Source: Candidatus Schekmanbacteria bacterium
Lineage (GTDB): Bacteria > CSSED10-310 > JACPHN01
Assembly (NCBI GenBank): GCA_016188575.1
Contig: JACPHN010000268.1
Span: 4,269 to 68,268 of the forward strand
Direction: 5' to 3'
DNA length: 64,000 nucleotides
Positions 305-43,782 of the stretch are shown in pieces. The notes under the pieces were generated by a model, which was not told where the DNA came from, did no database searches, and worked only from the letters and a program-made list of their open reading frames with translations. Position numbers and translations under genes: made by a program. Positions within the stretch are counted from its first letter, which is position 1; each line of letters starts with the position of its first letter.

Positions 305-1754
305 GAACGCCCCGGTCGGCCGCCGGCTCCGGCTGCGGTTGCCGGCTCACCGCCCGAGTCGCCGCAACCAGCGCGATGAGCAGGTAGGGGAACCAGCTCA
401 GCACGAAGCCGCCTGCCAGGCCACACGCCAGAAAACCCCACAGCGAGGCGTGCAGCGCGAAGGCGAGCGGGGCGATCAGGTGCGCGTTTCGCCCGCCCCC
501 CACGCCGCCCACACCGCCCACACCGCCCAGCCCGGCGCGCTCGCCGCCCGCGCGGCCCCGCCGCGCCAGGCGGCCCGTGCCGACCAGCGCCGCCGCCAGC
601 ATCCCGGCAAACGGCACGAACCCCGCCAGACCCGTCTCGGCAAGCGCCTGAACCAGCGTGTTGTGGCTGTGCAGCCAGCCGTTGGACGGCGCGTCCGCCG
701 GCGCATACAGCGGCCAGCCAAGCATGGAGCAACCCAGCCCGACCCCGGTCAACGGCCGATCCGCGAACATCTCCAGCCCCACGCGAATCGTCCACAGCCG
801 TTCCTGAACCGTCGTATCCGCCCGCAACCCGGAAAACCCCTCGTCGCGCGTCCACAGCCGGTCTGCGAACGCCAGGCAGACGATCCCCCCGGCAACCGCC
901 AGGACCCACACGGAGAGCTTGCGCGAGCGCAGCACGCTCAGCCCGATCACCACCGCCAGCGCCAGCAGCCCGCCGCGCGAAAACGTCACGAAGATCGCCG
1001 GCAGGTAGATCGCCGCGACGCCATACAGGGCCGCGCGCCGCGGCAAGCTGCCGTCGCGCGCCAGGTACAGCGCCAGCGGCAGGAGAATGACCAGACTGTA
1101 GGCGAGCTCGTTGGGGTTTTCGAAAATCCCGATCCAGCCGGCGCGGGACCCCTCTACAAGCTGACCGGTCGCGTAGTGCTGCAAGGTGCCGAGGGCGGGA
1201 AACAAGCCCCCGACGACCATCACGGTCGCGATGCCGCGGAGGCGTCCGAGATCCGTGGCGACATTCAGCACGAGCAAGGACACGGCGGCCATCTTTGCCA
1301 GATCCGCGAGCTGCTCGGCGGCATACCCCGGCCACAGCGCGCCGGCGACCGACAGCGCGGCGGCGGCGACGAAGCCGAGCAACAGGTAGCTTTCCGGCCA
1401 CACCAGGCGGAACGCACGTTCCGCCACCACCAGCTCGACGGCCAGCACGACGAGCGCCAGCAACGCCACCGCCTGCGCCGGCCGCACCGCTTCCAGCGCC
1501 GGGACCAGCAGCGCCGCATTGGAGTAGAGCAGGGCCAAAAAGAGCAGCACGAGCCAGTAGGACAGGCGCCCGCGACGGGCGCCGTGCCGCCGGTCGCTCC
1601 CCAGCGGCCCCTCCACCTCACCTCCCCGCGCTTGCGGGGGGCGGCCTCCAAGCTCTCTCTCTCCCCCCGCTTGCCGGGGAAGGAAGGCAGCGGGGTATGA
1701 TCGCAGTGGTCGCGTGGCCGCGTCCTGCCGATATTTGACACCGCTTGCCGTCAT
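297..1754 (-). CDS. O-antigen polymerase/ligase family membrane protein (Wzy/WaaL-like)
   Basis: Multi-span inner-membrane protein of the O-antigen ligase/polymerase family. It would join lipid-linked repeats into a polymer in the periplasm. About ten hydrophobic segments follow residue 75, with a large periplasmic loop carrying the family-typical GVGLGCSML...HSHNTLVQALAETGLAG (H-S-H-N-T-x-x-Q). The ATG at 1754 overlaps the wecB stop as ATGA, the coupling style used throughout the operon, so I use it. The first 60-70 residues, however, are basic, Pro/Gly-rich and encoded by the GC-rich palindromic repeat at 1608-1696. A GTG start at about 1638, preceded by a purine-rich stretch, is an alternative that would remove most of this head. 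Near the C-terminus a 9-nt tandem repeat (501-536) encodes a GGVGGVGG run in a cytoplasmic loop. Confidence 0.82.
   Translation of the reverse strand: MTASGVKYRQDAATRPLRSYPAAFLPRQAGGERELGGRPPQARGGEVEGPLGSDRRHGARRGRLSYWLVLLFLALLYSNAALLVPALEAVRPAQAVALLALVVLAVELVVAERAFRLVWPESYLLLGFVAAAALSVAGALWPGYAAEQLADLAKMAAVSLLVLNVATDLGRLRGIATVMVVGGLFPALGTLQHYATGQLVEGSRAGWIGIFENPNELAYSLVILLPLALYLARDGSLPRRAALYGVAAIYLPAIFVTFSRGGLLALAVVIGLSVLRSRKLSVWVLAVAGGIVCLAFADRLWTRDEGFSGLRADTTVQERLWTIRVGLEMFADRPLTGVGLGCSMLGWPLYAPADAPSNGWLHSHNTLVQALAETGLAGFVPFAGMLAAALVGTGRLARRGRAGGERAGLGGVGGVGGVGGGRNAHLIAPLAFALHASLWGFLACGLAGGFVLSWFPYLLIALVAATRAVSRQPQPEPAADRGVHE
1608..1696. repeat. GC-rich palindromic repeat (family 1), double hairpin
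   Basis: Two successive hairpins of the same type: CCCCGC/GCGGGG with a 4-nt loop at 1624-1639, and a second CCCCCCGCTTGCCGGGG-like stem at about 1663-1679, flanked by CTCCACCTCACCTCC-type sequence. The same pattern recurs at 3021, 5431, 9071, 19091, 20105 and 41577. It is translated here as the N-terminal extension of the polymerase gene on the minus strand. Confidence 0.8.
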
Positions 1755-2914
1755 GCCCGCACTCCCGGCTCCCGAGCGCGCACCTGTCTGCTGCGCACGC
1801 CGCGGTACAGCTCCCGGATCTCGGTGCGGTGCTCGTATAGCGCGCTCACGATGCGTTCGGCGGCGTGGCCGTCCCACTTTTCGGGGGTCCGCCGGAGCTT
1901 CGGCGGGCCCGACAAGATGGCCCGGGCGCTTTCGAGAATGAGGCCGCCGTCGAAGCCGACCAGCTCGTTGGTGCCCAGGGTCACGGTGATGGGCCGTTCC
2001 GTGTTTTCGCGCAGCGTCAGACAGGGCACCCGCAGCATGGTGGATTCCTCCTGAACGCCGCCGGAATCGGTCATCACGAATCGGCAATCGCGGAGCAGTC
2101 GGATGAAGTCGACGTAGTTGAGCGGCGGGATCCTGCGCACGTGGTCGAGACTTGCGGTCAGCCCGAGACCGCCAAGCTGGGCCGCCGTGCGCGGATGCAC
2201 CGGAAAGACGATGGGGACGCGTTTGCCGAGCTCTTCTATGATCGCCGCCAGGTGCGCAAGGCGGCGGGGATCGTCGACGTTCGCGGGGCGGTGCAGTGTG
2301 AGCATGGCGTAGTCGCCGTCCTCGAGCTCGAGCCGACTGTGCACGTCGGACGACGCGATGCTCGGCCACGACCGCCGGAGCGTGTCGGCAAGCACGTTGC
2401 CGGTAAAGAAGATCTTCTCGGCGGCGATCCCTTCCTGGCGCAGATTGGTGATGGCCTGGGGTTCCGTGACGAAGAGGTAATCGGCGATGGCGTCGGTCAG
2501 GACGCGGTTGATCTCCTCGGGCATCTCGCGGTCGAAGCTGCGCAGGCCCGCCTCGACGTGTGCCACCGGGATGCCGAGGCGCGTGGCCGTCAAGGCCGCC
2601 GCGAACGTCGAGGCCACGTCGCCGACCACCAGCACCAGGTCGGGGGGAACGGCCTCCAGATAGTCCTCCAGGCCCTCGAGCAGGCGCGCGGTCTGGTGGC
2701 CGGGTGAGCCGGAACCGACGCCGAGGTGGACATCGGGCTCGGGAATGTGCAGGCCGCGGAAAAAAGAGCTGGAGAGCGACTCGTCGTAGTGCTGGCCAGT
2801 GTGGACCAGACGGGGAGCGATGCCCCGATGGCTGGTCATGGCGTCCATGAGCGGCGCGATCTTGACGAAGTTTGGCCGGCAACCGACGACACTGACGATG
2901 CTCAACGCGTCCAT
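1751..2914 (-). CDS. wecB: UDP-N-acetylglucosamine 2-epimerase (non-hydrolysing)
   Basis: Converts UDP-GlcNAc to UDP-ManNAc in the cytoplasm, supplying ManNAc or, with the dehydrogenase at 9450-10799, ManNAcA for the polymer. The product (387 aa) is full length for WecB. Family motifs are easy to read: VGCRPNFVKIAPL near the N-terminus, HTGQHYD, AHVEAGLRSFD (the conserved His-x-Glu-Ala-Gly-Leu-Arg), MPEEINR, TLHRPANVD and the UDP-binding TDSGGVQEES with LRENTERP. The ATG at 2914 is preceded by an AGGAGG ribosome site. Upstream in-frame sequence is only shadow of the deacetylase gene. It overlaps the end of the deacetylase by 13 nt and the start of the polymerase by 4 nt. Confidence 0.95.
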   Translation of the reverse strand: MDALSIVSVVGCRPNFVKIAPLMDAMTSHRGIAPRLVHTGQHYDESLSSSFFRGLHIPEPDVHLGVGSGSPGHQTARLLEGLEDYLEAVPPDLVLVVGDVASTFAAALTATRLGIPVAHVEAGLRSFDREMPEEINRVLTDAIADYLFVTEPQAITNLRQEGIAAEKIFFTGNVLADTLRRSWPSIASSDVHSRLELEDGDYAMLTLHRPANVDDPRRLAHLAAIIEELGKRVPIVFPVHPRTAAQLGGLGLTASLDHVRRIPPLNYVDFIRLLRDCRFVMTDSGGVQEESTMLRVPCLTLRENTERPITVTLGTNELVGFDGGLILESARAILSGPPKLRRTPEKWDGHAAERIVSALYEHRTEIRELYRGVRSRQVRAREPGVRA

Positions 2915-4191
2915 AGCTCGGTCCTCCTGAGGACTGCGTGCGTCGTTTCGGCCAGGGGTCGACTCTCTGCCAGACCGGCCGAATCGGTGGACGAGGTCAT
3001 TGTGAGTGACTGCGTCGCAGCGCCCCCCGCCGCAAGCGGGGGGAGGCAAGGCAGGGGGTCCTGGCGAACGGGCGCTTGATCCAGGTCCGCCGGTCGCTCG
3101 GCGTGGCGGTCTGAGCAGGCGCGCAGAACCTCGAAAATGCCGTTGATCTGAGCGCTCATGACCGCGCCCGAGAACTGCCCGTCCGCGCCCTTGCAGCAGT
3201 TTTCCCACAGGTGTTTGCGCGGCACGGTAAGCTGCGGGAACGCGGCGTGGCGGTGCCGGCAGGTGGTACAGGCGTGGGCATAGCCGGCCGCCGCGACGGC
3301 CTCGACGTCCGCGGCGCTGAACCGGCCGGCGGGGTAGGCGAAGCAGTCGACGCCGTGGCCGAGCTCGGCGGCGAGCTCCTGGCGCGACTCCGCAAGCTCC
3401 CGCCGCACGCGCGCGCGTGATTCGAGCGGCAGGATGATGTGGGTTTGCGTGTGGGAACCAATGGTGACCCCGGCGCGGTCGAGCGCACGGATGGCCGGCC
3501 AGTCCAGGATGCGCAGCTCGTCGAGGTCGCTCTCGTCGACGCCGACTGCGGACTCCAGCGCCGCGACGAGCTCGCCGAGAGCGGCGCAGGTGACCCGGGC
3601 GCAGAGCAGCTCGGTGAGGGTCGCCGCCGACCCGGATCCCGCGGGCACCGCCCCAAGGAGCACCTCCGGCGACACGCCGAGTTCCCGCAGCGCCGCAAGC
3701 GACAAACAACCGCCTTTCCCCCACCGCGCCGCCGCGGTGTGGAGCAGCCGGTAGAGGCGGTCGTGCAGCGGAATGCCCGCGCCGCCCGCCAGGTCGGTCA
3801 CGACGAACACGGTCGCCGGGACGCCGAGCGCGCGGAGGACCGGCAAGCCGTGCTCGGCCACGTCGCGGTAGCCGTCGTCGAAGGTGACGGCGGCGACGGG
3901 GGCGGCGCCTGCCTGATCCGCCCCCTGGTGCGCCGCCGCGAGCTCGTCCAGCGCGACGAAGCGATGGGAACGCCCCACCCAGCGCAGTTGCCGGGCGAGC
4001 ATGTCCTGGGTGATCTGCATCGCCGGCATGGCGTGCGCTTCGGACTGCATCCGCTGCACGACGCGATGGTAGCACAGCACCAGTGGTCGATAGCGCCGCC
4101 GCGACACCGCGCCGATTGCCTCCGCGAGGCCCAACGCGTGCAGGCTGCGCGCCACTGTGCTCTTTATCGTGCGCCGCCAGGGTGCGCTCAT
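2902..4191 (-). CDS. Polysaccharide deacetylase (NodB-like) family protein
   Basis: A carbohydrate esterase 4-type deacetylase expected to remove acetyl groups from N-acetyl sugars of the exopolysaccharide. Residues about 35-45 contain LCYHRVV, the usual opening of polysaccharide deacetylases. AAVTFDDGYRD carries the metal-binding Asp pair, and GSHTQTHIILP carries the H-x-x-x-H metal ligands. The later FAYPAGRFS is the family's Y-P-x-G motif. The 429-aa product is longer than a NodB core. The last ~70 residues are low-complexity and include CLPPLAAGG, which is the translation of the palindromic repeat at 3021-3043, so the C-terminus looks extended by repeat insertion. Its start overlaps the acyltransferase stop as ATGA, and its end overlaps wecB. 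Some PEP-CTERM/EpsH-type loci carry a similar deacetylase; that link here is inference. Confidence 0.88.
   Translation of the reverse strand: MSAPWRRTIKSTVARSLHALGLAEAIGAVSRRRYRPLVLCYHRVVQRMQSEAHAMPAMQITQDMLARQLRWVGRSHRFVALDELAAAHQGADQAGAAPVAAVTFDDGYRDVAEHGLPVLRALGVPATVFVVTDLAGGAGIPLHDRLYRLLHTAAARWGKGGCLSLAALRELGVSPEVLLGAVPAGSGSAATLTELLCARVTCAALGELVAALESAVGVDESDLDELRILDWPAIRALDRAGVTIGSHTQTHIILPLESRARVRRELAESRQELAAELGHGVDCFAYPAGRFSAADVEAVAAAGYAHACTTCRHRHAAFPQLTVPRKHLWENCCKGADGQFSGAVMSAQINGIFEVLRACSDRHAERPADLDQAPVRQDPLPCLPPLAAGGAATQSLTMTSSTDSAGLAESRPLAETTHAVLRRTELWTR
3021..3056. repeat. GC-rich palindromic repeat (family 1)
   Basis: A perfect 8-bp stem, CCCCCCGC at 3023-3030 and GCGGGGGG at 3036-3043, with a 5-nt loop, followed by the family's GAGGCAAGG tail. 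It lies inside the last ~50 codons of the deacetylase gene and is read in frame. Confidence 0.8.
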
Positions 4192-5402
4192 GGCCGTCCC
4201 TCGCGCTGCCGGCGCGCGAGCGCCCGGTCAAGCAGCTTCCGCGCCATCCTGCGCGCCCGCCGCTTGAGCTCGCCGGCGCTCCGGCGCAGGCGCCCGCTCA
4301 TGCCGGGCGGGTAAAGGCGCAAGCATTCGAGCGTCCGCCGCTCTCCCGCCCACAGATACTTGTAGGGCTCCTCACCGTGAAGAAAGTCGAATTCGGTCAC
4401 GCCCTCTTCCATGCAGTGCCGGATGACCAGCCCCGCCATGACCAGGCCGACCCCGCGATCCGCGAGCGCGGGGTCAAAACCGGCCTGGTAATAGAGAAAC
4501 CTGTGCCCAAAGCGGAACCCGTACACGGCGGCCGCGGGACGCCCGTCCAGACGCATGAGGAACAGGCGCAACCAGCCCCGTTCCAGCGCCTCCCGGCTCA
4601 GCTCCTCATGGAAGTCGCGCAGACTTCGGGTGTGAAAGGCATCGGAGCCGCCGCGCTCTTGCCAGCGTTTGAAGTGCAGCACCAGCAGATCCTCGAGCGC
4701 CTCACGGCGTTCCTGGTCGGTGCCCGCCAGCGCGAAGGAAACCGCGTAACGCTGCTGCAGCTTGCGGCAGCGGGCGCGGAAGTTCTGCCGATGCCGCGGC
4801 CCGAGCGAGGCGATGTAGTCTTCGAACGTCGGCTGCTCGAGGCGGACAATGGGGCAGACGTTGGTGGTTGTCGCCGACTGGTGCCATCCCCGCCCGACCA
4901 GCCGGGCGGCCAGCCGGCGCGCGAACGATTCTCCGGCAGCGAGCTGCCCGAGCACCAGCGCTCGGCGCCGCACGGTCACGTGTTTCGCGAGCGCCTCCAG
5001 CACCTCCTCTTCGCACCCGTCGCGGACGATGATGTCGAGGTAGTCCGAGCCGACGCTCCCGGTGCCCAGCAGCTCGAGCGGCGAGAAGGGCCAGCGCTTT
5101 CTCATCAGCGGCGCCAGGGCCACCAGCTCCTCGCGACGCCACAGCGCGATCAGGCGCATGCAGCGCCCCTCGGACAGGTGCTGCCACCACGCCGACATCC
5201 ACTCCCAGGTCAGGAAGAGCTCCCGGCTCTTGCTATTCTCAAGCAGATCGTGCCAGTCGTGGTACAGCCGCAAGAAGGCCAGGCGGCTGCCGATACGTTC
5301 CGCCACCAGCCCGCCGGGGGGACTGCTCCGATTCGCCACGAAGGCGGCTCTGACCTGTTCCGCTGCGAGGATCGGCGGGATATCTACGTTGGCAACGCTC
5401 AT
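4188..5402 (-). CDS. GNAT-family acyltransferase, CelD/BcsL (FemAB-like) type
   Basis: Likely transfers an acyl or aminoacyl group onto a cell-envelope or exopolysaccharide sugar. The C-terminal half shows the CelD/BcsL acetyltransferase pattern: LGPRHRQNFRARCRKL, then GWLRLFLMRLDGRPAAAVYG, FLYYQAGFDP and TEFDFLHGEEPYKYLWA. It is a paralogue of the gene at 6820-8022. I choose ATG 5402 (MSVANVDIPP) because of the GGAAGGGAG ribosome site just upstream, giving 404 aa. The frame is open up to an ATG at 5624 that overlaps the aminotransferase stop as ATGA. That longer form (478 aa) would include a peptide encoded by the repeat at 5431-5473, so the true start is uncertain. The 3' end overlaps the deacetylase by 4 nt. 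Confidence 0.83.
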   Translation of the reverse strand: MSVANVDIPPILAAEQVRAAFVANRSSPPGGLVAERIGSRLAFLRLYHDWHDLLENSKSRELFLTWEWMSAWWQHLSEGRCMRLIALWRREELVALAPLMRKRWPFSPLELLGTGSVGSDYLDIIVRDGCEEEVLEALAKHVTVRRRALVLGQLAAGESFARRLAARLVGRGWHQSATTTNVCPIVRLEQPTFEDYIASLGPRHRQNFRARCRKLQQRYAVSFALAGTDQERREALEDLLVLHFKRWQERGGSDAFHTRSLRDFHEELSREALERGWLRLFLMRLDGRPAAAVYGFRFGHRFLYYQAGFDPALADRGVGLVMAGLVIRHCMEEGVTEFDFLHGEEPYKYLWAGERRTLECLRLYPPGMSGRLRRSAGELKRRARRMARKLLDRALARRQREGRP

Positions 5403-5620
5403 GGCGACTCCCTTCCTGAATCCACTACTTTCCACGCCTCCCCCCGCTTGTGGAGGTGAGGTGGGGTGGAATGCTCCCCTCTGTGGATCCTGAGTAAGGT
5501 GGCCCCGCCGAGCTCTTCGAGCAACGGTCCCCCCAGCCTCCGGGAGAGGGGCCTCGGAAGTGTAGTAGAGGAACCGGCTTCCGAGCTCATTGGGGCCACC
5601 TATGTAAACACGTGCGGTGC
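5403..5620. repeat. Repeat-rich spacer between aminotransferase and acyltransferase genes
   Basis: Contains a family-1 GC-rich palindrome at 5431-5473 (TCCACGCCTCCCCCCGCTTG followed by GGAGGTGAGGTGGGG). A second inverted pair, AGGTGGCCCC at 5497-5506 and GGGGCCACCT at 5592-5601, encloses further small stems such as CGGAAG/CTTCCG. The whole stretch has no stop in the minus-strand frame leading into the acyltransferase, so it may be translated. No other gene is seen in it. Confidence 0.7.
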
Positions 5621-6823
5621 TCATGCCGGCTTCGCCTCCGGAGCGAGCAGCCGGAGACCGCGCGTGCGATGCGTGTCGTCCGCATGCCAGCGGTGCAAAC
5701 CGAGCATGCGAATCTGTTTGGCGATGTGCTCGATGACCTCCAGCGTCACGTACTGGTGAATGGGGATCTCGAGGAGGTGCTCGCGAAGAAAGCGGACGGC
5801 GGGCGAGATCTCCGTGAGCGACGGGTCACCGACGTTCCAGAACTGGACGGTCTGGATGCCCGCTGCCTCCAGCGCCGCCGCGGCCGCCGCCTTGTCGGGA
5901 ACGAGCAGGGGAAAGAAGAGCGGACAGACGCCGTCGTCGATGGTGCTGCGCAGCAGCGGCGCCTGGCCATCCAGAAGCTGCACCAGGAGCTGAAAGTTCG
6001 CTCGCCGCCGCGGCCGGATCTCGGCGTAGGGCAGGCGCTCGAGGATGCGCCGCGACAGGTCGGAAAGCGCGATGTCGGCGACCGAGCGATCGAAGCCCGC
6101 ATCGCCGACGGGAATCCGCGGCCCCCACGTCGCGCTCAGCAGGCGGCCGGTAGCGCGTTTCGCCGCCGCCAGCACCTGGCCCGCGCCGCCGGCCCGGCTG
6201 CGAAACCACTCCACCAGCAGCTCGCTCGCCCTGCCCGCGGTCGACAGCCGGTCACAAGGGCGCAACGGCATGGCCGCGAGCCCCGGAATCGGCCAGCGGT
6301 TCTGTGCCAGGATCGCGCCGTTGGGAACCGGTAGCGTCTTGTACAGGCAGAACACCGAGAAGTCCCCAAACGTGCCGAGCGGCTGTCCCTCCAGCTCGCT
6401 CAAGAGCGCCAGAGCACAATCCTCCACCAGCACGAGGTCGCGCTCCCGGCAAATCTCCGCGAGCTCCCGGATCGGCTGCGGCCAGCCGATGTAGTGGATC
6501 GATAGCAGCGCCCGGGCACCCGACCGCGCGAGCCGCGAGACCTGGTCCAGATCCGGCTGCAGGTGCCGGTCCACGCGGTAGAACCGCAAGCGGGCACCTG
6601 CCGCCAGAATCGCCTTGATCTCATTACCGTGGTGGTAATCCGGAACGAGAACGGTCTCGTCCGGCCGCAACATGAGTTGCGAAAACAGATGGTAGAGCGC
6701 GTTGCGCGCGCGGTACCGGTAGATGACGTCCGGACTGCCCAGCGGGAAGGGCCTGGGAGCAGCGGACGGCGGCGACAGGAAGAGGCGCGGATCGAGACCT
6801 GGCCCCGCGGATGCGTACATCAT
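5621..6823 (-). CDS. DegT/DnrJ/EryC1-type PLP aminotransferase
   Basis: PLP-dependent sugar-aminotransferase-like protein of 400 aa. Visible features are the cofactor-binding Asp in LVLVEDCALALLSELEGQ, a Lys in FCLYKTLPVPNGA at the position of the Schiff-base lysine, and YRYRARNALYHLF near the N-terminus. In this operon it may aminate a keto-sugar nucleotide or a sugar-like acceptor, but no dehydratase that would make a keto-sugar is seen in the window, so the substrate is open. The start MMYASAGP at 6823 has an AGGAGGA ribosome site and overlaps the preceding gene as ATGA. The longer upstream frame is shadow. It sits between two CelD-type acyltransferase paralogues, suggesting the three act on the same substituent. 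Confidence 0.82.
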   Translation of the reverse strand: MMYASAGPGLDPRLFLSPPSAAPRPFPLGSPDVIYRYRARNALYHLFSQLMLRPDETVLVPDYHHGNEIKAILAAGARLRFYRVDRHLQPDLDQVSRLARSGARALLSIHYIGWPQPIRELAEICRERDLVLVEDCALALLSELEGQPLGTFGDFSVFCLYKTLPVPNGAILAQNRWPIPGLAAMPLRPCDRLSTAGRASELLVEWFRSRAGGAGQVLAAAKRATGRLLSATWGPRIPVGDAGFDRSVADIALSDLSRRILERLPYAEIRPRRRANFQLLVQLLDGQAPLLRSTIDDGVCPLFFPLLVPDKAAAAAALEAAGIQTVQFWNVGDPSLTEISPAVRFLREHLLEIPIHQYVTLEVIEHIAKQIRMLGLHRWHADDTHRTRGLRLLAPEAKPA

Positions 6824-8022
6824 GCCTGGGTCCTCCTCATTGCATGGTTCAAGAGCGCACGTGCCTCGCTCATCGGGCGATAAAGCCGACTCGCGCGCAG
6901 CCGCGGCAGGATGTGGAACTTGAGCTGGCGGACCGCGCGGCTGCGCCAGCCGTGCGGGAAGAGAAACAGCCATTCATGGCGGCGCGTCGTCGCCGTCCAC
7001 TCCCGCTTCCACGGCTCGTCGTCGCCGAGAAAGTCGAGCTCGCTCAACCCGCGCTCGTAGCAGTGCTTGAGCACGTGAAAAACCAGAAGGTTGGTCGGCG
7101 AATACTGCCGGTACAGTGGGTCGAAGCCCGTCTTGACCAGGAAAAAACGACCGCCGTACTCGAGCGCGAAGGCGAAGGCGATGCGCCGCCCGCCGGCCGT
7201 GAGAAAACAGAGGCGGAGCCAGCCGTGGCGCGCCGCCTCGGGGACGAGCTGGGCATAGAACTGCCGGCAGCTCTCAGTCGACGCGATCGCGGTGCCCGCG
7301 TCCTGCTTCCACGCGGCGCCCTCGATCTGGATGCCTTCCGCGAGCGCGCTTTCAACTTCGGAACCGGAGGTGACGATCTCCATGTCCAGGCTGGCGCTGC
7401 GCATGAGGCGGCCCAGGCGGTTGCGCAGATTGGCGCGGTGTTTGGCGGAGAGCGACCGCAGGTAGCCGTCGAAGGTCCCTTCCAGCTCCAGGTACGGAGC
7501 GTCGGCGGCGTGCCATAGCTCGCCGGCGACCGCGTCCGCGCGGGCGAGGGCCGGAAGTCTGCGCAGCGTCGGCGAGTCCGCGGGGAGCTGGCAGAGGGTC
7601 ACGTAGTCCAGCTCGTCGAACATCTCGGTCACCTGCTGCCAGAGGGCCAGGTAGACGCGGTCGCTGCGCTCGCCGGCGAGATCGAAGCGAGAGGTGTGGG
7701 CATTGGCGAGAAACTCGAGCGTGACGGTCCTGAGCCCGTAGACGCGGCGCACCGACAGCATCATGGGGGCGACGGCGACAAGCTCGGTGCCGTCGCGGAA
7801 AACGAAAACCCGCAGCGCGTGTCCCGAGCCGAAGCTGTCCCACCAGCAACTGACCCAGGCGTGAGTATTGAAGGGATGATCGCCAGGTGAGCGGCGGGTC
7901 AGCGCGGACCATTCGGGTGCGAGCGCCGCCAGCCCGGCGCTGCTCTGCACCACCTCGACCGCGAGCCGGCCGCGCCGCGGCGCCAGCCGTTCAGTCGCTA
8001 TCTCAAGCACGATCGCGCTCAT
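6820..8022 (-). CDS. GNAT-family acyltransferase, CelD/BcsL type (second paralogue)
   Basis: 400-aa paralogue of the gene at 4188-5402. Shared landmarks are LSAKHRANLRNRLGRL, then GWLRLCFLTAGGRRIAFAFA, FFLVKTGFDPLYRQYSP and LSELDFLGDDEPWKREW. The N-terminal half carries the family's W-x-x-L...HPFNTHAWVSCWWDSFG opening and an ELVAVAPMML strand. It probably acylates a sugar or amino-sugar of the exopolysaccharide in the cytoplasm. It overlaps both the upstream glycosyltransferase and the downstream aminotransferase by 4 nt, so translation is likely coupled. The two paralogues differ considerably in sequence, which argues for distinct acceptors or acyl donors rather than a recent duplication. 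Confidence 0.84.
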   Translation of the reverse strand: MSAIVLEIATERLAPRRGRLAVEVVQSSAGLAALAPEWSALTRRSPGDHPFNTHAWVSCWWDSFGSGHALRVFVFRDGTELVAVAPMMLSVRRVYGLRTVTLEFLANAHTSRFDLAGERSDRVYLALWQQVTEMFDELDYVTLCQLPADSPTLRRLPALARADAVAGELWHAADAPYLELEGTFDGYLRSLSAKHRANLRNRLGRLMRSASLDMEIVTSGSEVESALAEGIQIEGAAWKQDAGTAIASTESCRQFYAQLVPEAARHGWLRLCFLTAGGRRIAFAFALEYGGRFFLVKTGFDPLYRQYSPTNLLVFHVLKHCYERGLSELDFLGDDEPWKREWTATTRRHEWLFLFPHGWRSRAVRQLKFHILPRLRASRLYRPMSEARALLNHAMRRTQA

Positions 8023-9446
8023 AGTCGGAGCTCCCGAGGTTTCGCATGGAGTAATCGCGGCCGCGCGGGGCGCGGCCGCCGCGGATCGCCGGCAGCCGGC
8101 GCCACCGCCACCGCCGCGCCTGACGCCTGCCAGAGATCCTGAGGATGGGTCACGTAGCGGTAGAGGCCGAGCACGGCGGCCCAGTTCAGCATGACGAAGT
8201 GGTAGGGAACGGACAGCAGCCGATCAAGCAGCCGCTGGGGTCCGCCGCCGCCGCCGGACAGGTGCGCGCGGCGATCGCCGCGCAAGCGATAGGCCCCGAC
8301 CACCGCGAGCAGGTAGGCAGCGGTCTGCGCCACCAGGAATGCGGTATAGAGCTCGCCCCGCAGCATCCAGCTCGACGCGTACAGCGCCGGCAGGAGAAAG
8401 GCGACGACGAGGCGCCCTACCTTGTGCGAGGCGAACTGCAGGAAGATCGGATCACGCCACGGCATCAGCAGCTCGGGCATGCGCGCCAGGAGCTGGTAGT
8501 TTCCGGCGAGCGTGCGCACCTTGCGGCGCAGCTCCGCGCTCGACGGCTGCTCGCGGTCGTAGGCGCGCGCGGCCGGGTCGAGGACGGCGCGCTTGCCGCG
8601 CAGAACGGCCCCCATGGGAATCGCGACGTCGTCGAGAATGGTGTCGGCGGGCAGCGGTGTGTACAGGTCCCGGCGCACGGCATGCAGCGCGCCGGTGGCG
8701 CCCGGCAGCGAGTGAATGTCGCTCTCCAGTGCGCGCAGCCACCGGTCGTAGCGCCAGTACAGGCCGATGCCGTCGCCGGCCACGTTGCCGTTTTCGTCCA
8801 GCACGATGACCTCACCGCTCACCGCGCCCACCTCGGGGTCGTGGAAGTTGGCGATGAGCTCGCGCACGGCGGCGCTTTCCAGCCGCTGCCGGGCATCGGC
8901 AAAGACGATGACGTCGCCGCGAGCCGCCGCCACGCCGCGATTCAACGCCCCCGCCTTGCCCTCGTGGCGCGGCGACCGCACTACAGTGAGGCGCGGTGCC
9001 GGCCACGCGCGGCGCGGCGACCGCAGCGGCGACCACGGGTGGTCGCCTAATCCCAGAAACGCCCGGTGCGGCCCCCTACCCCTCCCCCCGCGCGCGGGGG
9101 CAGGTGTGGTGGGGCGTCTTCGCGATGCGTCCCAGGCGCTCGTGAGCCGCCGGTGGGCGCTCGCCCAACGTTCCACCACGCGATCCGTGCCGTCGCTCGG
9201 ACCATCGAGCGCGATGACGATCTCCAGCTTGCTCGGCGGGTAAACCTGGCGCAGGCAGTCCTCGAGCTTGTCCACGATCGCCTCGCGCTCGTTGTAGGCG
9301 GCGATGACGATGCTCACCGACAGGCGACAGGGTTGCTTGTCCACCGGCGCCAGGCCATACCGCCGCCGGGCGAGCAAGTAGAGCGGATAGCCCACATACA
9401 CGTAGGCGATGATCGCCAAACTGCTCCAAAAAACGACCTGCGCCAC
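8019..9446 (-). CDS. GT2-family processive-type membrane glycosyltransferase with repeat-encoded insertion
   Basis: Family 2 glycosyltransferase (475 aa), probably building the repeat unit at the cytoplasmic face of the inner membrane. An N-terminal membrane helix is followed by SVSIVIAAYNEREAI, the nucleotide-binding IALDGPSDGTD, HEGKAGALNRG, a D-A-x-x DXD-equivalent (VIVFADARQ), and TGALHAVRR. ILDDVAIPM supplies the E/D-D acidic pair. Several C-terminal helices follow. Between ASAHRRL and TVVRSPRHEGKAG, where relatives have only a few residues, about 50 Arg/Pro/Gly-rich residues are inserted (roughly 9000-9150). These coincide with the family-1 palindrome at 9071-9114. The insertion falls on a surface loop before the acidic motif, so activity may be retained. 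The start at 9446 lies 3 nt after the dehydrogenase stop. Confidence 0.87.
   Translation of the reverse strand: MAQVVFWSSLAIIAYVYVGYPLYLLARRRYGLAPVDKQPCRLSVSIVIAAYNEREAIVDKLEDCLRQVYPPSKLEIVIALDGPSDGTDRVVERWASAHRRLTSAWDASRRRPTTPAPARGGRGRGPHRAFLGLGDHPWSPLRSPRRAWPAPRLTVVRSPRHEGKAGALNRGVAAARGDVIVFADARQRLESAAVRELIANFHDPEVGAVSGEVIVLDENGNVAGDGIGLYWRYDRWLRALESDIHSLPGATGALHAVRRDLYTPLPADTILDDVAIPMGAVLRGKRAVLDPAARAYDREQPSSAELRRKVRTLAGNYQLLARMPELLMPWRDPIFLQFASHKVGRLVVAFLLPALYASSWMLRGELYTAFLVAQTAAYLLAVVGAYRLRGDRRAHLSGGGGGPQRLLDRLLSVPYHFVMLNWAAVLGLYRYVTHPQDLWQASGAAVAVAPAAGDPRRPRPARPRLLHAKPRELRL
9071..9114. repeat. GC-rich palindromic repeat (family 1) inside a glycosyltransferase gene
   Basis: Contains the perfect 16-nt palindrome CCCCCGCGCGCGGGGG (9085-9100) followed by the family tail CAGGTGTGGTGGGG. 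It is read in frame as part of a Pro/Arg/Gly-rich loop of the GT2 protein. Confidence 0.8.
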
Positions 9447-18988: not shown

Positions 18989-19090
18989 TGTCGGTTCAAC
19001 TCTCAGTACAGGTCTCTAGGGACTTGTCCCGGCACAGCATCGGCAGACACCTGACAGGGCAGTTGCCAGGGGCACGATCTCCGTCTCCTT

Positions 19091-19160
19091 CTGCCCTCCG
19101 TTCCCCCCGCTGGCGAAGGGAGGTGAGGTGGGGGGAGGGCAGGGGTGGGGGGAGAGCTGG
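19091..19160. repeat. GC-rich palindromic repeat (family 1)
   Basis: TTCCCCCCGCTGGCGAAGGG followed by AGGTGAGGTGGGGGGAGG and a G-rich tail. It is intergenic here, immediately 3' of the regulator gene on the minus strand, and shares the CCTCCCCCCGC...GGAGGTGAGGTGGGG pattern of the other copies. Confidence 0.7.
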
Positions 19161-27312: not shown

Positions 27313-27451
27313 TTGCCGAGCACAACCGGCGCCTGTGTCCTGAATCCACCGAGGGCTCGACGTCGATGCGCCTTCCGCGCAGCTTTCAGCCGCACAGGCG
27401 GTGGATTGAGATGTGTGGCAGGCCTGGTGCAGAATCAGGGATCAGCAGACG

Positions 27452-34697: not shown

Positions 34698-34755
34698 GCC
34701 CGGCAAGAGGCTATCAGGCAAGAAGCGCTACATGCTGCCGGCGGCGAAGGACCGG

Positions 34756-35586
34756 TCACCGCGGCGGGCCATCCGCCTCCGACATCGACAGGATCATCTC
34801 GCACCGGGGCGCATAAATAAGCTCGACCGCGTGGCCCAGGCGGAGCGCGCGGAGCTGTCGCGCCTTGCCGTGCTCGCCCAGGCGCAGCGCGACCCCGCGC
34901 GGGAGCCAGGACGTGGCCGAGTCGATCAGGTTTACCTTCAGCTCGGCGCGCAGGGTGCGCCCGCCCTTGACAGGGTAGCTGGCGAGCTCCATGACGCGAA
35001 GCGGCGCGACGTCGCGGGCGCGCGCTGAATGGTGGGCGCGCGCCGGTAACGACGGGACCGCGAGCGTAAAGAGCTCCGGGCCGCCGCGCTCGTCACCATA
35101 CACGGTGACGATGAGCTGCCCGCCGCGCTCCTGAAACGCCATGCGCGCCATGTATTTGGGGACATTCAGGTAATCGATACCGCCCGCCATGGCGACTTCC
35201 GAATCTACCGGCAACTGAAAAACGTAGGCCTCATACCGCTCGCTCAGCACGGAGCGCACGAGGTGCAGCGCGCCGTGAGCCCATGCGTCGCGAGTGTACG
35301 AGATGCCGGCCGACAGCGAGACCTCACAGTATGCCCCGAGCTGGGAGGCGCGGTATTGAAAGCAGTGAATGGCGACGAGCGCGGTTCCCGGCAGCGGCCG
35401 CAGCGGGCGATGACGCGGCGTCGGCATCAGCGCCTGCACCGCCGCCGCGTCCGCGGTAAAAACAACCGCCGTCATGGAGGCATCGTAGTAAAAGAGCGGC
35501 GAATAGCCGCGCCACTGCCGAATCGGGATCTCCCGCTGCTCCACGCCGCGGAAAAACTCGCTTGTTGTGCGCTGCTCCCCGCTCAC
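34756..35586 (-). CDS. Acetoacetate decarboxylase family protein
   Basis: 276-aa member of the acetoacetate-decarboxylase superfamily. AYCEVSLSAGISY and AGGIDYLNVPKYMARMAF hold the expected region around the Schiff-base Lys (Lys in VPKYMA). An Arg/Glu pocket is suggested by the surrounding GE-x-x motif but cannot be confirmed by eye. Some family members act as aldolase-dehydratases rather than decarboxylases. The start overlaps the acyl-CoA synthetase stop as ATGA. It is the last gene of a minus-strand operon (acyl-CoA dehydrogenase, thiolase, acyl-CoA synthetase, this), consistent with processing of a beta-keto acid released from the pathway. Confidence 0.82.
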   Translation of the reverse strand: MSGEQRTTSEFFRGVEQREIPIRQWRGYSPLFYYDASMTAVVFTADAAAVQALMPTPRHRPLRPLPGTALVAIHCFQYRASQLGAYCEVSLSAGISYTRDAWAHGALHLVRSVLSERYEAYVFQLPVDSEVAMAGGIDYLNVPKYMARMAFQERGGQLIVTVYGDERGGPELFTLAVPSLPARAHHSARARDVAPLRVMELASYPVKGGRTLRAELKVNLIDSATSWLPRGVALRLGEHGKARQLRALRLGHAVELIYAPRCEMILSMSEADGPPR

Positions 35587-37331: not shown

Positions 37332-37508
37332 CTCGCTCTCCTTGGGACCCGTAACGAAATAACCGTTGCATTCGGCCGGCTGCGAAGGCCGCCGGCTTCG
37401 TCTCTCCTCCTCACCGTATTGCTCCATTGACACGCTTCGTCGTCGTTCCTCGAAAGCGGCCTTCTCGCTCGGCCTCGGTGCTTGACACAGTGATTTCGCT
37501 ACGGGTCC

Positions 37509-38939
37509 TCACATCCGGTCAATGATGTGAATGGCCATCGCCGCCTCCTCCACGCCCAGTGCCCCGCCGCCATTCACCGCCATGCCGATAGTGGCGCCCT
37601 CCACTTGTCGCGCACCGGCTTCACCCCGGAGCTGGCACACGAGCTCGTGGACCTGCGCGAGACCCGAAGCCGCGATGGGATGGCCCCGGCACTCCAGACC
37701 CCCGCTCGGGTTCACCGGCCGAGCGCCACCGATGCGCGTGGCTCCGGACGCCGCATAAGCCCCCCCTTCACCTTCGCGGCAAAACCCGAGTGTCTCGCAT
37801 TGGTGGAGCTCGCCAAAGGCTGTCGCGTCGTGCACCTCGGCCACGTCGATCGCCTCGGGGCCGACGCCGGCCCGCTCATACGCCGCCGCCGCCAGCCGCG
37901 CGCTGATGTCCGGCTCCCCATCACCGCGCGCCTTGCCCGATCCAAGCACGCTCGCGCGAATCCGCACCGGCCGGGAACCCGAACGCCGCCGCCGCCAGAC
38001 ATTCCGGCTGCAGACCACGACCGCCGCCGCACCGTCGCCGATCGGCGCGCACATGGCTCGCGTCAACGGAAAACTGACCGGCCGATCCGCCAGGACCTCC
38101 TGCACCGTCAGCGGAAACCGATACTGCGCCAACGGGTTGTGAACGCTGTGCTCATGGTTCTTGGCCGCGACCGCGGCGAGCTGCTCGATGGTCGTTCCGT
38201 AGCGCTTCATGTGGCGGCGCGCGTTGAGCGAGTACACATCCATGAAGGGGCTCTGATCGCCAGCGCCGCGGCTCGCGAACGCCTTCCGCATCGACCACAG
38301 GCGCTCCCAGCCGAAGGTGTGGCCGATCGTGACGAGGTCCTGCGCGAGCTGCAGCGCGTCGTTTGCGGCGCGCGTCGCGGTGCGCAGCGCGAGCACGTCG
38401 CGCCAGGATTGGGCCGGCGGGGACACCGGGCGCCGATTTCCCGGATGTGCGACTGTCCAGTCCGCGGGAAACGCCGCCGGTATCCCGAGCTCCCGCTCCG
38501 CTTCGAGGTAGCGCGCGAGCGAGGCCGGAAGGTCGGCGACGTCGAGCCCGCCCAGGAAACCGGCAAACATGAAAAGCCGATTCGGTGAGTAGATCTTCTC
38601 CGCGCCCACCGCCAGGGCGACTTCGTACTGGCCCGCGGCGACTCCCATCCACGCCCCATGCAGGGCGGTGGAACCACCTGCGCACGCGTTCTCCACGTTG
38701 ACGATGGGGATCGTGTCGATGCCGGCGGCGCGCAACGCGACCTGGCCGCGAATGCAGAGCTGCCCGTCGCTGCGCCCCCAGTTGCTGTTCGCGAACCACG
38801 CGGCCTGCACGTCCTCACGCGCCAACCCGGCGTCGCGAAGGGCGTTGTCGACGACCTCCGCCGTCATGTCCTTGATCGTGCGCTGCGGATACTTCGCAAA
38901 CCGCAGCATCTGGCTGCCCGCGATCAGTGCTTCCCTCAC
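37509..38939 (-). CDS. Thiolase (SCP-x-like acetyl-CoA acyltransferase)
   Basis: 476-aa thiolase starting with GTG 38939, whose GTGA overlaps the acyl-CoA dehydrogenase stop. The nucleophile Cys is in VNVENACAGGSTALHGAW. VAEVHDATAFGELHQCE and NPSGGLECRGHPIAASGLAQ carry the active-site His, and GMAVNGGGALG ends the fold. The C-terminal pattern, with H but without the usual final C-x-G, is typical of SCP-x/lipid-transfer-type thiolases that handle branched or sterol side chains. An internal insertion VVCSRNVWRRRRSGSRPVR is unusually Arg-rich. It probably cleaves a 3-ketoacyl-CoA made after the dehydrogenase. Confidence 0.88.
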   Translation of the reverse strand: MREALIAGSQMLRFAKYPQRTIKDMTAEVVDNALRDAGLAREDVQAAWFANSNWGRSDGQLCIRGQVALRAAGIDTIPIVNVENACAGGSTALHGAWMGVAAGQYEVALAVGAEKIYSPNRLFMFAGFLGGLDVADLPASLARYLEAERELGIPAAFPADWTVAHPGNRRPVSPPAQSWRDVLALRTATRAANDALQLAQDLVTIGHTFGWERLWSMRKAFASRGAGDQSPFMDVYSLNARRHMKRYGTTIEQLAAVAAKNHEHSVHNPLAQYRFPLTVQEVLADRPVSFPLTRAMCAPIGDGAAAVVVCSRNVWRRRRSGSRPVRIRASVLGSGKARGDGEPDISARLAAAAYERAGVGPEAIDVAEVHDATAFGELHQCETLGFCREGEGGAYAASGATRIGGARPVNPSGGLECRGHPIAASGLAQVHELVCQLRGEAGARQVEGATIGMAVNGGGALGVEEAAMAIHIIDRM

Positions 38940-40387
38940 GGCTCCCGCGCCTCCATCGCAAACAGCCCCCTGAAGACGTGCAGTCGGTTCACTTCGTTGG
39001 TTCCCTCGTAGATTTGCGTCAGCTTGGCATCCCGCAGGCATTTTTCGACGCCCCAGGCCGGCTCGCAGGCATCCTCGCCGAGGATTCGCATCGCGGCACG
39101 GCAGATGTCCATGGCCAGGTCGCTGCACGTTTGCTTCGCCAGAGAAGCGAGGCCGAGCACAAAATCCAGCTCCCTTTCCGGCACGGCGTGGGCGAGCCAC
39201 GCGCGCATGGCGCCGGTGACGAGGCGCGACGATAACGCTCCGCGCAGCGGCGAGGCACGGAGCAGCGGGCGGGGCACGGCCGCCATGGCGTCCTGGAGTC
39301 GCGGGCTCAAAGCTTTCATGAAGCCGCACGATTCCACGGCCATGGCGGCGTCAAAATAGAGCTGCCTGCCGCTCTGGAGCTTGCCGATCATGTCGGCGAG
39401 CGCGAGCTGCACCCACTGGGCCTCGAACCGCCACCGGCCGTTTTCCCTCTTCTCCGCCAGGTAGGCGAGAGCTCGTTCGATCGCGCCCCGGGCGATGCCC
39501 ATCGCGATCGCGCCGACCGGGCCGCGCGTCATGGACAAGGCGTGTTTGACGAGCGGGATCGGGCTGCCCTTGCCGCCCAGGCAGTCCGAGAAGGGGACGA
39601 AGAGATCGTCGAACACGAGCTCGGCAGCAGGACAGAGGCGTTGTCCGAGCTTGTGCTCGATGCGCCCTACCGAGAATCCGGCGGCATTGGTGGGCACCAC
39701 GAACTGGATCGTGCTTTCCACGGGGCGGGACGGATCGGTAATGGCCGAGGCCCAGGCGTAGCGGGCGATGCTGCCATTGGAGATGAACACCTTGCGGCCG
39801 GTAACGCGATAGCCGCCCGGGACCTCGCGGGCGACCGTGCGCAGCCGCGCGGAATGGATATGCACCTCATCCTCGATGTCGCTACCGGCCTCCGGTTCCG
39901 TGTAGGCGAGCGCGAAGATGACGGGGGTGCCGGCGCGTTCACCGTCTGCGATTTCGGCAAGGTGGCGATAGAACCAGTCCAGCTCGAGACTGTAGATCAG
40001 TGGCACGATGCCGAGGTTGTGAGCGCCAAAGATGTTGGCGATGCCGGCGTCGGCCGCGCATAGCTCCTCCATCATGAAGGCCACGGCGGGGAGCCGCTGG
40101 CCCAGGCCGCCAAAGGCGCGCGGGATCACCGCACTGAGAAAGCGGTAGGGGAGCGCGCCGCGGATCGCTTCCCAGGCGACGAAGGTGTGGTCGTCGCCGG
40201 CGCGGCGATCCCAGTCGGCCGCGTACGGGCGCACGTGCTCGTCGCTGAAGCGTCGCGCCGCGGCTTGTAGCCGCGCGCACTGATCGATGAGCTCCGGATC
40301 CCCTTTCGCGAGGCCGGCGGCACGCGGAAAGGCGCGCGGGAGCTCGTGCAGGATCGGGCTATAGACGTGCGGTGCGGAAGTCCCCAC
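38936..40387 (-). CDS. Acyl-CoA dehydrogenase
   Basis: 483-aa flavoprotein dehydrogenase. IFALAYTEPEAGSDIED and GYRVTGRKVFISNGSIARY are the FAD and substrate-binding loops. VFDDLFVPFSD, GIARGAIERALAYLAEK, and LRDAKLTQIYEGTNEVNRLHVFRGLF near the C-terminus hold the conserved YEGT-x-E motif. I start at GTG 40387 because an AGGAGG site (40393-40398) is correctly spaced. Longer frames are not supported. It is first in a four-gene minus-strand lipid-degradation-type operon and is divergent from the sucrose module across 207 nt. Like other long ACADs it may act on bulky or branched substrates. Confidence 0.9.
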   Translation of the reverse strand: MGTSAPHVYSPILHELPRAFPRAAGLAKGDPELIDQCARLQAAARRFSDEHVRPYAADWDRRAGDDHTFVAWEAIRGALPYRFLSAVIPRAFGGLGQRLPAVAFMMEELCAADAGIANIFGAHNLGIVPLIYSLELDWFYRHLAEIADGERAGTPVIFALAYTEPEAGSDIEDEVHIHSARLRTVAREVPGGYRVTGRKVFISNGSIARYAWASAITDPSRPVESTIQFVVPTNAAGFSVGRIEHKLGQRLCPAAELVFDDLFVPFSDCLGGKGSPIPLVKHALSMTRGPVGAIAMGIARGAIERALAYLAEKRENGRWRFEAQWVQLALADMIGKLQSGRQLYFDAAMAVESCGFMKALSPRLQDAMAAVPRPLLRASPLRGALSSRLVTGAMRAWLAHAVPERELDFVLGLASLAKQTCSDLAMDICRAAMRILGEDACEPAWGVEKCLRDAKLTQIYEGTNEVNRLHVFRGLFAMEAREP

Positions 40388-40594
40388 GAGAGCCTCCTGG
40401 TGATGCGGGCGAGCGGGCGGCGTGACGCAGAGCATCGTAGCAGCCCGCCGCGCCGCGGTCAACCGCCGCCATGAAGTGTGCGGCGCCACGGGGCGGCCCG
40501 GGTCTTGCTTACTTCGCTCGGGTCCCAGTTTGCACCGTGGGCGGTATAAAGGAGTAGATACTGGGAATTCAGGAGCACGCGGGAGGATCGCACC

Positions 40595-41515
40595 ATGGAT
40601 TCGTCCTGTGGACCCCTCGTTTTCGGTGAAGCGCTGTATGACAGCTTCCCTGACGGCAGCGCGGTGTTGGGCGGCGCGCCATTCAACGTCGCCTGGCACT
40701 TGCAGGGGTTCGGGCTGGCACCCTTGTTCATCACCCGCGTCGGCCGTGATGAGCTGGGCGAGCGAATGATCGCGGCGATGCGCGCCTGGGGAATGGACAC
40801 GCGCGGTGTACAGACGGACCCGCGCCACCCCACGGGCAGCGTTGCGGTCAGCTTCCGAGGCCACGAGCCGAGCTTCTCGATCGTGCCCGAGCAAGCCTAC
40901 GATTTCATCGACGGCGAGCTCGCGGCGGCGCTCATGCAGGACGGTAGCCCCGGGCTGCTCTACCATGGCAGTCTCATTGCCCGACATTCTGCCTCGCGTG
41001 ACGCCCTGGCGAGGCTGCGCTCAGCAGGGCTCTCTGTTTTCCTCGACGTCAATCTTCGCGCTCCGTGGTGGCAACGACCCTGGCTCGACGACGCCTTGCG
41101 AAGCGCTCGCTGGGGGAAAGTCAACGAGCACGAGCTGCGGGTGCTGGCCGCGCCTGACGCGACCGGCGACGATGGCGACGACGGCGACGACGACGTGTCG
41201 GCCCGCGGCCAGCGCCTGCGCCGAGAATACGGCCTGGAGCTGCTGGTGGTAACGCGCGGCGCCGCAGGCGCGCTGCTCCTGACCGCTGCCGGCGCGACCG
41301 CTGCGGCGCCCCACGACACCGCCGCGATCGTCGACACCGTAGGGGCCGGCGATGCCTTCAGCGCGGTGACGATACTCGGACTCTTGCGTGGCTGGTCGTT
41401 GCCACAGATGGCGGTGCGGGCCGTGGAGCTCGCCGGGGCGGTATGCCGCATGCGCGGCGCCACGGGTCACGACCGCGCGCTCTATCAGAAACACTTACTG
41501 AGGTGGGCAACATGA
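40595..41515 (+). CDS. PfkB-family carbohydrate kinase (fructokinase)
   Basis: 306-aa ribokinase-fold kinase phosphorylating fructose, the by-product of sucrose synthase. VFGEALYDSFPDGSAVLGGAPFN is the sugar-binding region, DTVGAGDAFSA holds the catalytic Asp and anion hole, and LDVNLRAPWW precedes it. A nine-nucleotide tandem repeat around 41164-41195 encodes an acidic GDDGDDGDDD loop. It overlaps the next gene as ATGA. Its place as first gene of a fructokinase, sucrose-phosphate synthase and sucrose synthase operon strongly supports fructose as the substrate and mirrors sucrose loci of nitrifiers and methanotrophs. Confidence 0.9.
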   Translation: MDSSCGPLVFGEALYDSFPDGSAVLGGAPFNVAWHLQGFGLAPLFITRVGRDELGERMIAAMRAWGMDTRGVQTDPRHPTGSVAVSFRGHEPSFSIVPEQAYDFIDGELAAALMQDGSPGLLYHGSLIARHSASRDALARLRSAGLSVFLDVNLRAPWWQRPWLDDALRSARWGKVNEHELRVLAAPDATGDDGDDGDDDVSARGQRLRREYGLELLVVTRGAAGALLLTAAGATAAAPHDTAAIVDTVGAGDAFSAVTILGLLRGWSLPQMAVRAVELAGAVCRMRGATGHDRALYQKHLLRWAT

Positions 41516-43782
41516 CCGCTTCCCCTGACTCCACCGCCACTTCGCCTGCAAGCTGCGCGGAAAGCGCATCACGAACACCCCCCACCTCTCCTTCCCCCGC
41601 CAGCGGCGGGAGGGACGGAGCGGGGCTTTCCACTTCCGATGCCGGCTTGTACCTGATGCTTCTCAGCATCCACGGACTGATCCGCGGCCATGACCTGGAG
41701 CTCGGCCGCGATGCGGACACCGGCGGGCAAACCAAATACGTCGTCGAGCTGACCCGGGCGCTCGCTGCGCATCCCCGCATCTGGCGCGTAGATCTGCTGA
41801 CGCGGCTCATTGACGACCCGCGGGTCGACGACGACTATTCGAGCGAGCAAGAACCCGTAGCGGAAAATGCCTTCATCACACGCATCCCCTGTGGCCCGCG
41901 CCGCTATCTCCGCAAGGAAACCCTGTGGACCTATCTTGACGGCTTTGCCGACAACGCCCTGCTCCACATCCGCCGCGTGGGCAGACTGCCGGATGTGATC
42001 CACAGCCACTATGCCGACGCCGGCTACGTCGGAGCTCGGCTCGCAGGTCTCCTCGGCGTGCCGCTGGTTCACACCGGGCACTCGCTCGGAAGAGAGAAAA
42101 AGAGACGCCTGCTCGTGCAGGGTATGGATGCGGAGGAGATCGAAAAGACGTACAACATGTCGCAACGTATCGAGGCCGAGGAGCTCGCCATGGACAATGC
42201 TGCCATGGTGATCGCCAGCACGACGCAAGAAGTCGAGAAGCAATACAGCGTATACGACAACTATCAGCCGCAAAGCATGGTGGTGATTCCGCCAGGTGTT
42301 GCCTTGGACCGCTTCTATCCCCCGCGCCGTGGCTGGTTCGCCACTCCGGATCCTCTGGAGCTCGGGCGCTTCTTGCGCGAGCCGCGCAGGCCCATGATCC
42401 TGGCGCTCGCTCGGCCCGACGAACGCAAGAACATCGCTACGTTGCTACACGCCTACGGCCAGCACCCCCGCCTGCAGCGCGCCGCGAATCTGGTGCTGAT
42501 CGCCGGCATCCGCGACGACATCAGCGCCATGGAGAGGGGACCGCGCGCCGTGCTCAACGAGATCCTCTTGTTGATCGACCGCTACGACCTCTATGGCCGC
42601 GTGGCATGCCCCAAGCACCATCATGCCGATGATGTGCCGCTCCTGTACCGCCTGGCAGCCAAGCGCGGCGGCATCTTCGTCAATCCCGCGCTCACCGAGC
42701 CTTTCGGCCTGACCCTGATTGAGGCCGCGGCAAGCGGGCTTCCCATCGTAGCCACGGAGGACGGGGGCCCGCGCGACATCATCGCGCACTGCCGAAACGG
42801 CGTGCTGATCGATCCCCTGGATCACGCGCGCCTGGGCGACGTGCTCTATGCGGCCATCAGCAATCGCCGCCAATGGCGCCGCTGGGCCAAGAATGGCGTC
42901 GCCGGCGCCCACAGGCGTTTCTCGTGGAGCAGCCACGTCAGCCGATACCTGTCCGAGGTGGAAAAGTTGATGAAGAAATGGCGACGCAAGCGCCCGGCGG
43001 CGGCGCCCAGGAGCAAGTTGCCAACCCTGACGAGGATCCTGATCACGGATATCGACAACACGCTGATCGGCGACCGCGCAGCGCTACAGACGCTGCTCGA
43101 GAGGATGCGTAGGCACGGCGAAAAACTCGGTTTCGGTGTCGCTACCGGGCGACGCCTCGAAAGTGTCGCCCGCGTCCTCAAGGAATGGGACGTGCCGACT
43201 CCGGACGTGCTGATTACCTCGGTGGGCACCGAGATTCACTACGGCAAGCGCCTGGAGCCGGATCTGGGCTATCAGGACCACCTGGAATACCGTTGGGCTC
43301 CGCAGGCGCTCCCGGAAGTGCTGAATGAGCTCCCGGGCTTGCGCTTGCAGGCCGCCGTGGAACAGCGACGGTTCAAGGTCAGCTTTCTTCTGGATCCCGG
43401 GAAGGCACCCAGCGTGCGGGTGATCAAGAAGCAGTTGCGGCGGCATGGCATACATGCCACCGTGGTATTGTCTAACGGCATTTATCTTGACGTCATTCCG
43501 GTGCGCGCCTCCAAGGGTAAGGCGATACGATATATAGCCAATAAGTGGGGGATTCCAATAGATAGTATTCTTGTTGCAGGTGATTCCGGAAATGATGAAG
43601 AAATGCTGACAGGGAATACCCTCGGCGTCGTCGTTGGCAACCATTGCGAGGAGCTGAAGGTCCTGCGCGGCCAAGAGCGCGTTTACTTCGCCCGCGGTCA
43701 ATATGCGCTGGGTATTCTGGAAGGAGTAGAGTTTTATAACTTCTTTGATGACATTAACAGTATCCATGAAAGTGTCGGATAG
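41512..43782 (+). CDS. Bifunctional sucrose-phosphate synthase / sucrose-phosphate phosphatase
   Basis: 756-aa fusion of a GT4 sucrose-phosphate synthase and a HAD phosphatase, giving sucrose from UDP-glucose and fructose-6-phosphate. The synthase part has [48 protein letters not shown] and the C-terminal GT4 motif [19 protein letters not shown]. The phosphatase begins at [12 protein letters not shown] (D-x-D-x-T) and ends with [12 protein letters not shown]. The first 47 residues precede the core, and about 22-40 of them are encoded by a family-1 palindrome (41577-41632). The ATGA overlap fixes this start. The last ~100 codons are noticeably richer in A/T than the rest. It is followed after one base by sucrose synthase. 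Confidence 0.93.
41577..41632. repeat. GC-rich palindromic repeat (family 1) in the sucrose-phosphate synthase gene
   Basis: CCCACCTCTCCTTCCCCCGC followed by CAGCGGCGGGAGGGACGGAG. The stem is CCCGCC/GGCGGG with an AGC loop. Translated in frame as a Ser/Pro/Gly-rich leader of the enzyme. Confidence 0.75.

Follow-up and report, generated by a model that had tools for sequence, protein, structure and literature searches.

We have traced the GC-rich palindromic repeats of the window, by which we mean the whole 64,000-nt stretch of DNA analysed, to a non-autonomous transposed element of the MITE class. In all likelihood it is a MITE of IS1380 type which inserted mostly between genes and whose in-frame insertions into genes are tolerated and translated. 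The minority of copies lying within genes is genuine. Genes are strongly avoided in the sampled part of the genome and these copies are therefore tolerated fallout of insertion rather than the product of a general drive to extend proteins.

An earlier note, made from the letters of the window, had described a family of short palindromes. The repeats are real and lie where that note placed them: allowing ≤3 mismatches, the 15-mer GGAGGTGAGGTGGGG occurs 14 times in the window versus 2.9 expected, and the genome-wide search which the note had proposed yields, at ≤1 mismatch, 187 occurrences in the 9.2-Mb genome versus 2 when the pattern is reversed. With a profile built on the entire element, 172 copies of at least 12 bits are detected in 2.35 Mb and 0 in reversed decoys. 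The exact 15-mer was found in none of 59 other genomes, among them seven further members of the phylum. The repeat unit is not a short palindrome, as the extension of copies outwards revealed the palindrome to be the core of a 140-nt element with consensus ends CCTGAATCCACCGCC...GGCGGTGGATTCAGG (predicted cut ends CCTGAATCC...GGATTCAGG) and terminal inverted repeats of ∼21 bp, CCTGAATCCACCGCCTGTTCG and CGAACAGGCGGTGGATTCAGG. When folded, the entire 140-nt consensus forms one long stem, which explains the palindromes first noticed. Matches to the terminal inverted repeats number 348 genome-wide versus 0 reversed, and 140 nt is the modal length (14 of 39 full-length copies). Comparison of the flanks of 34 full-length copies identified an exact 4-bp target duplication at 11, versus 0.12 expected from mismatched flank pairs, indicating that the element has transposed in the manner of a MITE. 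It is short, lacks a transposase gene, is present in high copy number and has both terminal inverted repeats and a target duplication, as MITEs do. Scaling from a sample of 25.6% of the genome, we estimate a total of ∼650–700 copies and fragments. The end-pair pattern had no match in 84,980 species genomes, a collection that may not include this genome or its closest relatives. The family belongs to none that can be named among known families; thus the family is new, while the process is already known.

The whole-element profile detects nine pieces in the window, which are given here with their host genes.

297-1754, minus strand: O-antigen polymerase/ligase-like membrane protein gene, two weak core pieces in its leader
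1610-1643, minus strand: MITE core fragment in the polymerase leader (12 bits), read on the element's plus strand
1658-1708, minus strand: weak MITE core fragment in the polymerase N-terminal leader (18 bits)
2902-4191, minus strand: polysaccharide deacetylase gene with a C-terminal extension
2993-3068, plus strand: MITE fragment in the deacetylase C-terminal extension
5415-5494, plus strand: short MITE derivative with both ends, CCTGAATCCAC...GTGGATCCTGAG (assigned by eye), by the FemAB-like gene
8019-9446, minus strand: family 2 glycosyltransferase (GT2) gene, insert near residues 103-150
9058-9156, plus strand: degraded MITE copy, consensus about 28-133, within the GT2 gene
19065-19135, plus strand: MITE core fragment, intergenic
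27353-27410, plus strand: MITE right end, intergenic
41512-43782, plus strand: sucrose-phosphate synthase/phosphatase (SPS) gene, host of the leader copy
41524-41626, minus strand: MITE copy, consensus 38-140, right end complete, in the SPS leader (82 bits)
60070-60106, minus strand: MITE fragment over the stop end of gene 60084-62150 (minus strand)

The evidence for in-frame residence differs among these hosts. The MITE copy makes up most of the SPS N-terminal leader, which is absent from SPS orthologues (49–54% identity), these beginning after it. At 41512 the SPS ATG shares bases with the stop codon of the kinase gene upstream (ATGA) and is preceded by a ribosome site, AGGTGG, which makes translation of the leader probable. 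In other genomes, homologues of GT2 form two alignment blocks that skip residues 103-150, and in a multiple alignment the ∼54-aa insert is absent from 15 of 15 homologues spanning the site; the recognisable element accounts for about 33 of these residues, the insert being longer than the element part. The in-frame status of the MITE is firm in both the SPS leader and the GT2 insert. It is also firm that the deacetylase C-terminus is an open read-through tail, homologues ceasing to align at residue 352 of 417 with the element lying within the tail. The 366-aa core of the polymerase had no Pfam match. The polymerase ATG at 1754 shares bases with the stop codon that precedes it (ATGA), and the leader, with its in-frame MITE segment, is therefore probably translated. 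At the GNAT/FemAB-like gene the well-placed start, ATG 5401, lies after the repeat at 5415-5494, making this copy ambiguous, and it may not be translated. Thus, of four in-frame copies that had been proposed, those in SPS, GT2 and the deacetylase hold, each being absent from homologues, and the one in the polymerase is only probable, while a fifth, placed at 5431 in an open acyltransferase leader, exists as an element but possibly outside the translated part. The proposal that a mobile repeat sits in frame inside several genes and supplies predicted peptide segments, as RPEs of Rickettsia do, is borne out.

Several other repeats were observed. Gene 60084-62150 (minus strand) contains about a dozen imperfect repeats of 43–44 codons and ends in a VPASG..hydrophobic..RPRR tail that resembles a protein-sorting signal. 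Inverted repeats of 36 nt, 97% complementary and 1.3 kb apart (62260-62295 and 63598-63633), surround gene 62383-63096 (minus strand), and similar ends (at least 26 of 36 bases) occur at >20 places in 2.35 Mb, representing another mobile element family. The stretch 63751-63859 contains a hairpin whose 23-nt arms, GGGCGCGATGAATCGCGCCC, are perfect; palindromes like it were counted at 30 places in 2.35 Mb and possibly constitute a second small dispersed repeat. A Y1_Tnp (IS200-like) match at 51352-51705 was not called by the gene finder. Another genome of the phylum (G001; L250–L254) has its own dispersed repeat, CCCCTGAATCCCCCGCCAGCGGGGGACAG, unrelated to the MITE beyond the first bases, and the G001 repeat CCTGAATCCCCCGCC, considered as a relative of the MITE, proved to be a different palindrome.

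Placement was counted in the 2.35-Mb sample (25.6% of the genome), leaving out the window and contigs selected by hits; the gene calls, 1444 in the whole sample, come from a self-trained finder run with the elements masked. Among 159 copies, 141 fall between genes, 4 extend over a gene end and 14 (∼1/11, 9%) lie within genes, although 84% of the sampled DNA is coding. The deficit is enormous and the MITE thus strongly avoids genes. Loci drawn by end sequence or the 15-mer alone (n = 24) agreed with this, comprising 21 intergenic, 2 internal and 1 edge copies. The window is unusual in that 5 of its 9 pieces are in-gene. Copies lie equally near gene starts and stops, and raw counts indicated no clear preference of the elements for convergent gene ends. 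The earlier suggestion of repeat-driven protein extension does not survive as a general drive, since only 14 of 159 copies are found in genes.

Insertion of a 140-nt element with its 4-bp duplication adds 144 nt, or 48 codons, and a clean full-length insertion therefore keeps the frame. Frame is preserved by 21 of 39 full-length copies, comprising 5/5 of those in genes versus 16/34 of the others (p = 0.035). The avoidance of stops pointed out in the earlier note is weak evidence: openness is unremarkable in such GC-rich DNA, in which shuffling leaves 1.56 of 3 frames open by chance, compared with 1.72 (plus strand) and 2.11 (minus strand) in real copies. Strand is distinctly biased. All 16 of the unbiased in-gene copies of at least 20 bits are read on the element's minus strand, versus 56.5% expected from open frames (p = 1e-4), and with weak and hit-selected copies added the ratio is 23:6 (p about 0.009). 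Minus-strand translations are all hydrophilic (GRAVY −0.9 to −1.6), making selection against harmful peptides the likeliest cause of the bias. A preference for a single frame, initially 9/14 (p = 5e-4 versus all six frames), was withdrawn, as addition of two independent copies gave 9/6/1 within the strand, which is not significant. The same features could be read as an element shaped for life in genes: its length and its duplication sum to a multiple of three, and one of its strands is open and hydrophilic. If so, gene insertions would survive more often and the element would persist, and in a free-living phylum of which little is known the MITE would be selected for its compatibility with proteins; we regard this as unlikely.

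Copies within genes elsewhere in the genome bear on whether such insertions are real. A full-length 140-nt copy with exact duplication CTCG resides in a 1347-aa kinase/AAA protein (C85), within a single AAA_16 Pfam match and with strong same-frame coding signal on both flanks. A beta-propeller protein (C64) has gained 40 codons from a 116-nt copy whose duplication, GTCA, is exact, and a 140-nt copy with 3/4 of its duplication follows the Walker B motif of an AAA protein (C173) and is absent from six paralogues. Further internal copies are found in a PD-(D/E)XK nuclease (C160), cyclase-like and AAA proteins (C102, C72), a kinase loop (C194) and a kinase-AAA linker (L080). The C194 loop varies naturally, so that absence from paralogues is weak proof there. 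The genome (G000) encodes many large Ser/Thr kinase-AAA-TPR proteins of >1000 aa, which are frequent hosts of internal copies. AlphaFold was used to model the AAA region of C173 and the GT2 of the window; the AAA core and the GT-A core, respectively, are confident (blocks with pLDDT ≥90) and the insert is <50 in both. The models are consistent with the insert being a disordered loop in an intact fold, which fits tolerance without proving it. The in-gene copies might instead be mostly artefacts of annotation or start-codon choice, open frames running through intergenic elements in DNA of high GC where stops are rare. About half of the frames in such DNA are indeed open by chance, and several N- and C-terminal cases (FemAB, C239, C177, L270, L273 and L274) could be chance read-through. 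Against this, internal copies have a strong coding signal in one and the same frame across both flanks, lie inside Pfam domains and break up alignment blocks that homologues conserve, and strand is more biased than openness predicts, making an artefactual origin of most in-gene copies distinctly unlikely.

The ends and the length of the duplication had pointed to an IS1380-type transposase before any search of the genome for such an enzyme. Target duplications of the IS1380 family are typically 4–5 bp, a range which the 4-bp duplication observed here fits. Like those of the family, the MITE ends begin CCT, an end common to the matches to PF13701 (IS1380-type transposase) in the genome, which are decayed copies at three places (C174, C143 and C269). 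The relic end CCTAAATCCACCGG, located downstream of the gene where expected, is identical to the MITE end at 13/15 bases, thus differing at two positions, with one relic copy matching at 12 bases and another at 11; the other end of the relics was not seen. In addition, a hybrid 241-bp element (C37:484-724) combines an end of the relic type with, at its opposite side, the right arm of the MITE. The match between relic and MITE ends and the hybrid element together constitute good evidence for an IS1380 origin of the MITE. Its mobilisation would be the work of an IS1380 transposase. Unlike IS1380 elements the MITE lacks a transposase, and only decayed copies, with no intact IS1380 transposase having matching ends, were found in the genome; among inverted end pairs 0.2–3.5 kb apart, which were listed but not each searched, none was seen with a transposase. 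Two IS1380 relics (L090 and L091) adjoin the same neighbour genes, the relic-bearing segment seemingly having been duplicated.

A different source of mobility would be a RAYT (Y1 tyrosine) transposase moving REP/REPIN-type sequences. The core is a GC-rich hairpin, dispersed and in high copy, and the genome contains eight Y1_Tnp matches, one of them in the window. The 140-nt unit, its ∼21-bp terminal inverted repeats and the 4-bp duplications are at odds with this; Y1 enzymes are not known to leave target duplications. The best Y1 matches are short, IS200-like open reading frames, mostly of 135–155 aa, and the MITE ends match the IS1380 relics. Unit structure and duplications also separate the element from REP units of 20–40 bp with a nearby RAYT gene, and a REP/RAYT origin is very improbable.

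Under the IS1380-type explanation, a transposase acting in trans would cut at the MITE ends and the element would insert with its 4-bp target duplication, surviving insertions being mostly intergenic. A canonical-length insertion would add 144 nt and keep the frame, and the strand usually read would be mostly stop-free. Insertions in that orientation, in protein loops or ends, would be tolerated and would yield, on translation, a segment of up to ∼48 aa that is hydrophilic and probably disordered; other insertions would be lost. Translation of the peptide and a near-neutral effect on host proteins appear probable on this basis. That the insertions are adaptive, providing useful linkers or regulatory loops as in signalling kinases, is very unlikely: several internal hosts are indeed kinase/AAA or cyclase-type signalling proteins of >1000 aa, but in-gene copies are as diverged as intergenic ones, genes are strongly avoided, loops such as that of C194 vary naturally and nothing shows benefit.

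In-frame insertion by MITEs is best known from the intracellular Rickettsia, whereas the genome investigated here is large and, judging from its size and content, apparently free-living. Enterobacteria and Coxiella have already furnished examples as well (PMC2759123, PMC5896051), and for the same process a 2024 review considered an occurrence in other prokaryotes conceivable (PMC10969869). The RPE of Rickettsia, which has relatives in Wolbachia, is a palindromic mobile repeat of 105–150 nt located both between genes and in frame in unrelated genes (PMC10969869, PMC2229807). The MITE resembles it in effect, in-frame insertion into unrelated protein genes yielding a predicted peptide segment; the sequences appear to differ and no membership in the RPE family is claimed. 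Terminal inverted repeats are ∼21 bp here and 12 bp in RPE, target duplications can be demonstrated here but are given as unknown for RPE (PMC2229807), the evidence points to an IS1380 origin of the MITE, and 9% of its copies lie in genes versus nearly half for RPE. ERIC/RU-1 and YPAL/RU-2 of enterobacteria are MITEs of 127–168 nt, mainly intergenic and sometimes fused in frame (PMC2759123, PMC2229807). Their sequence and ends (5'-TA in RU-1) are unrelated to those of the MITE, for which, unlike in the ERIC/YPAL account, a mid-enzyme insertion was compared with homologues and the frame shown to be kept. In Coxiella burnetii, QMITE1 and QMITE2 extend or enter open reading frames, as in the C-terminal extension of enhC (PMC5896051); QMITE1 is 300–400 bp with 2–3-nt repeats, resides in an obligate intracellular host and is unrelated in sequence. 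The present system offers one family with many insertions, dateable by their exact duplications, in enzymes and kinases, and thus a good natural experiment for studying how proteins acquire disordered segments from mobile DNA and which of their loops can accommodate about 48 additional residues.
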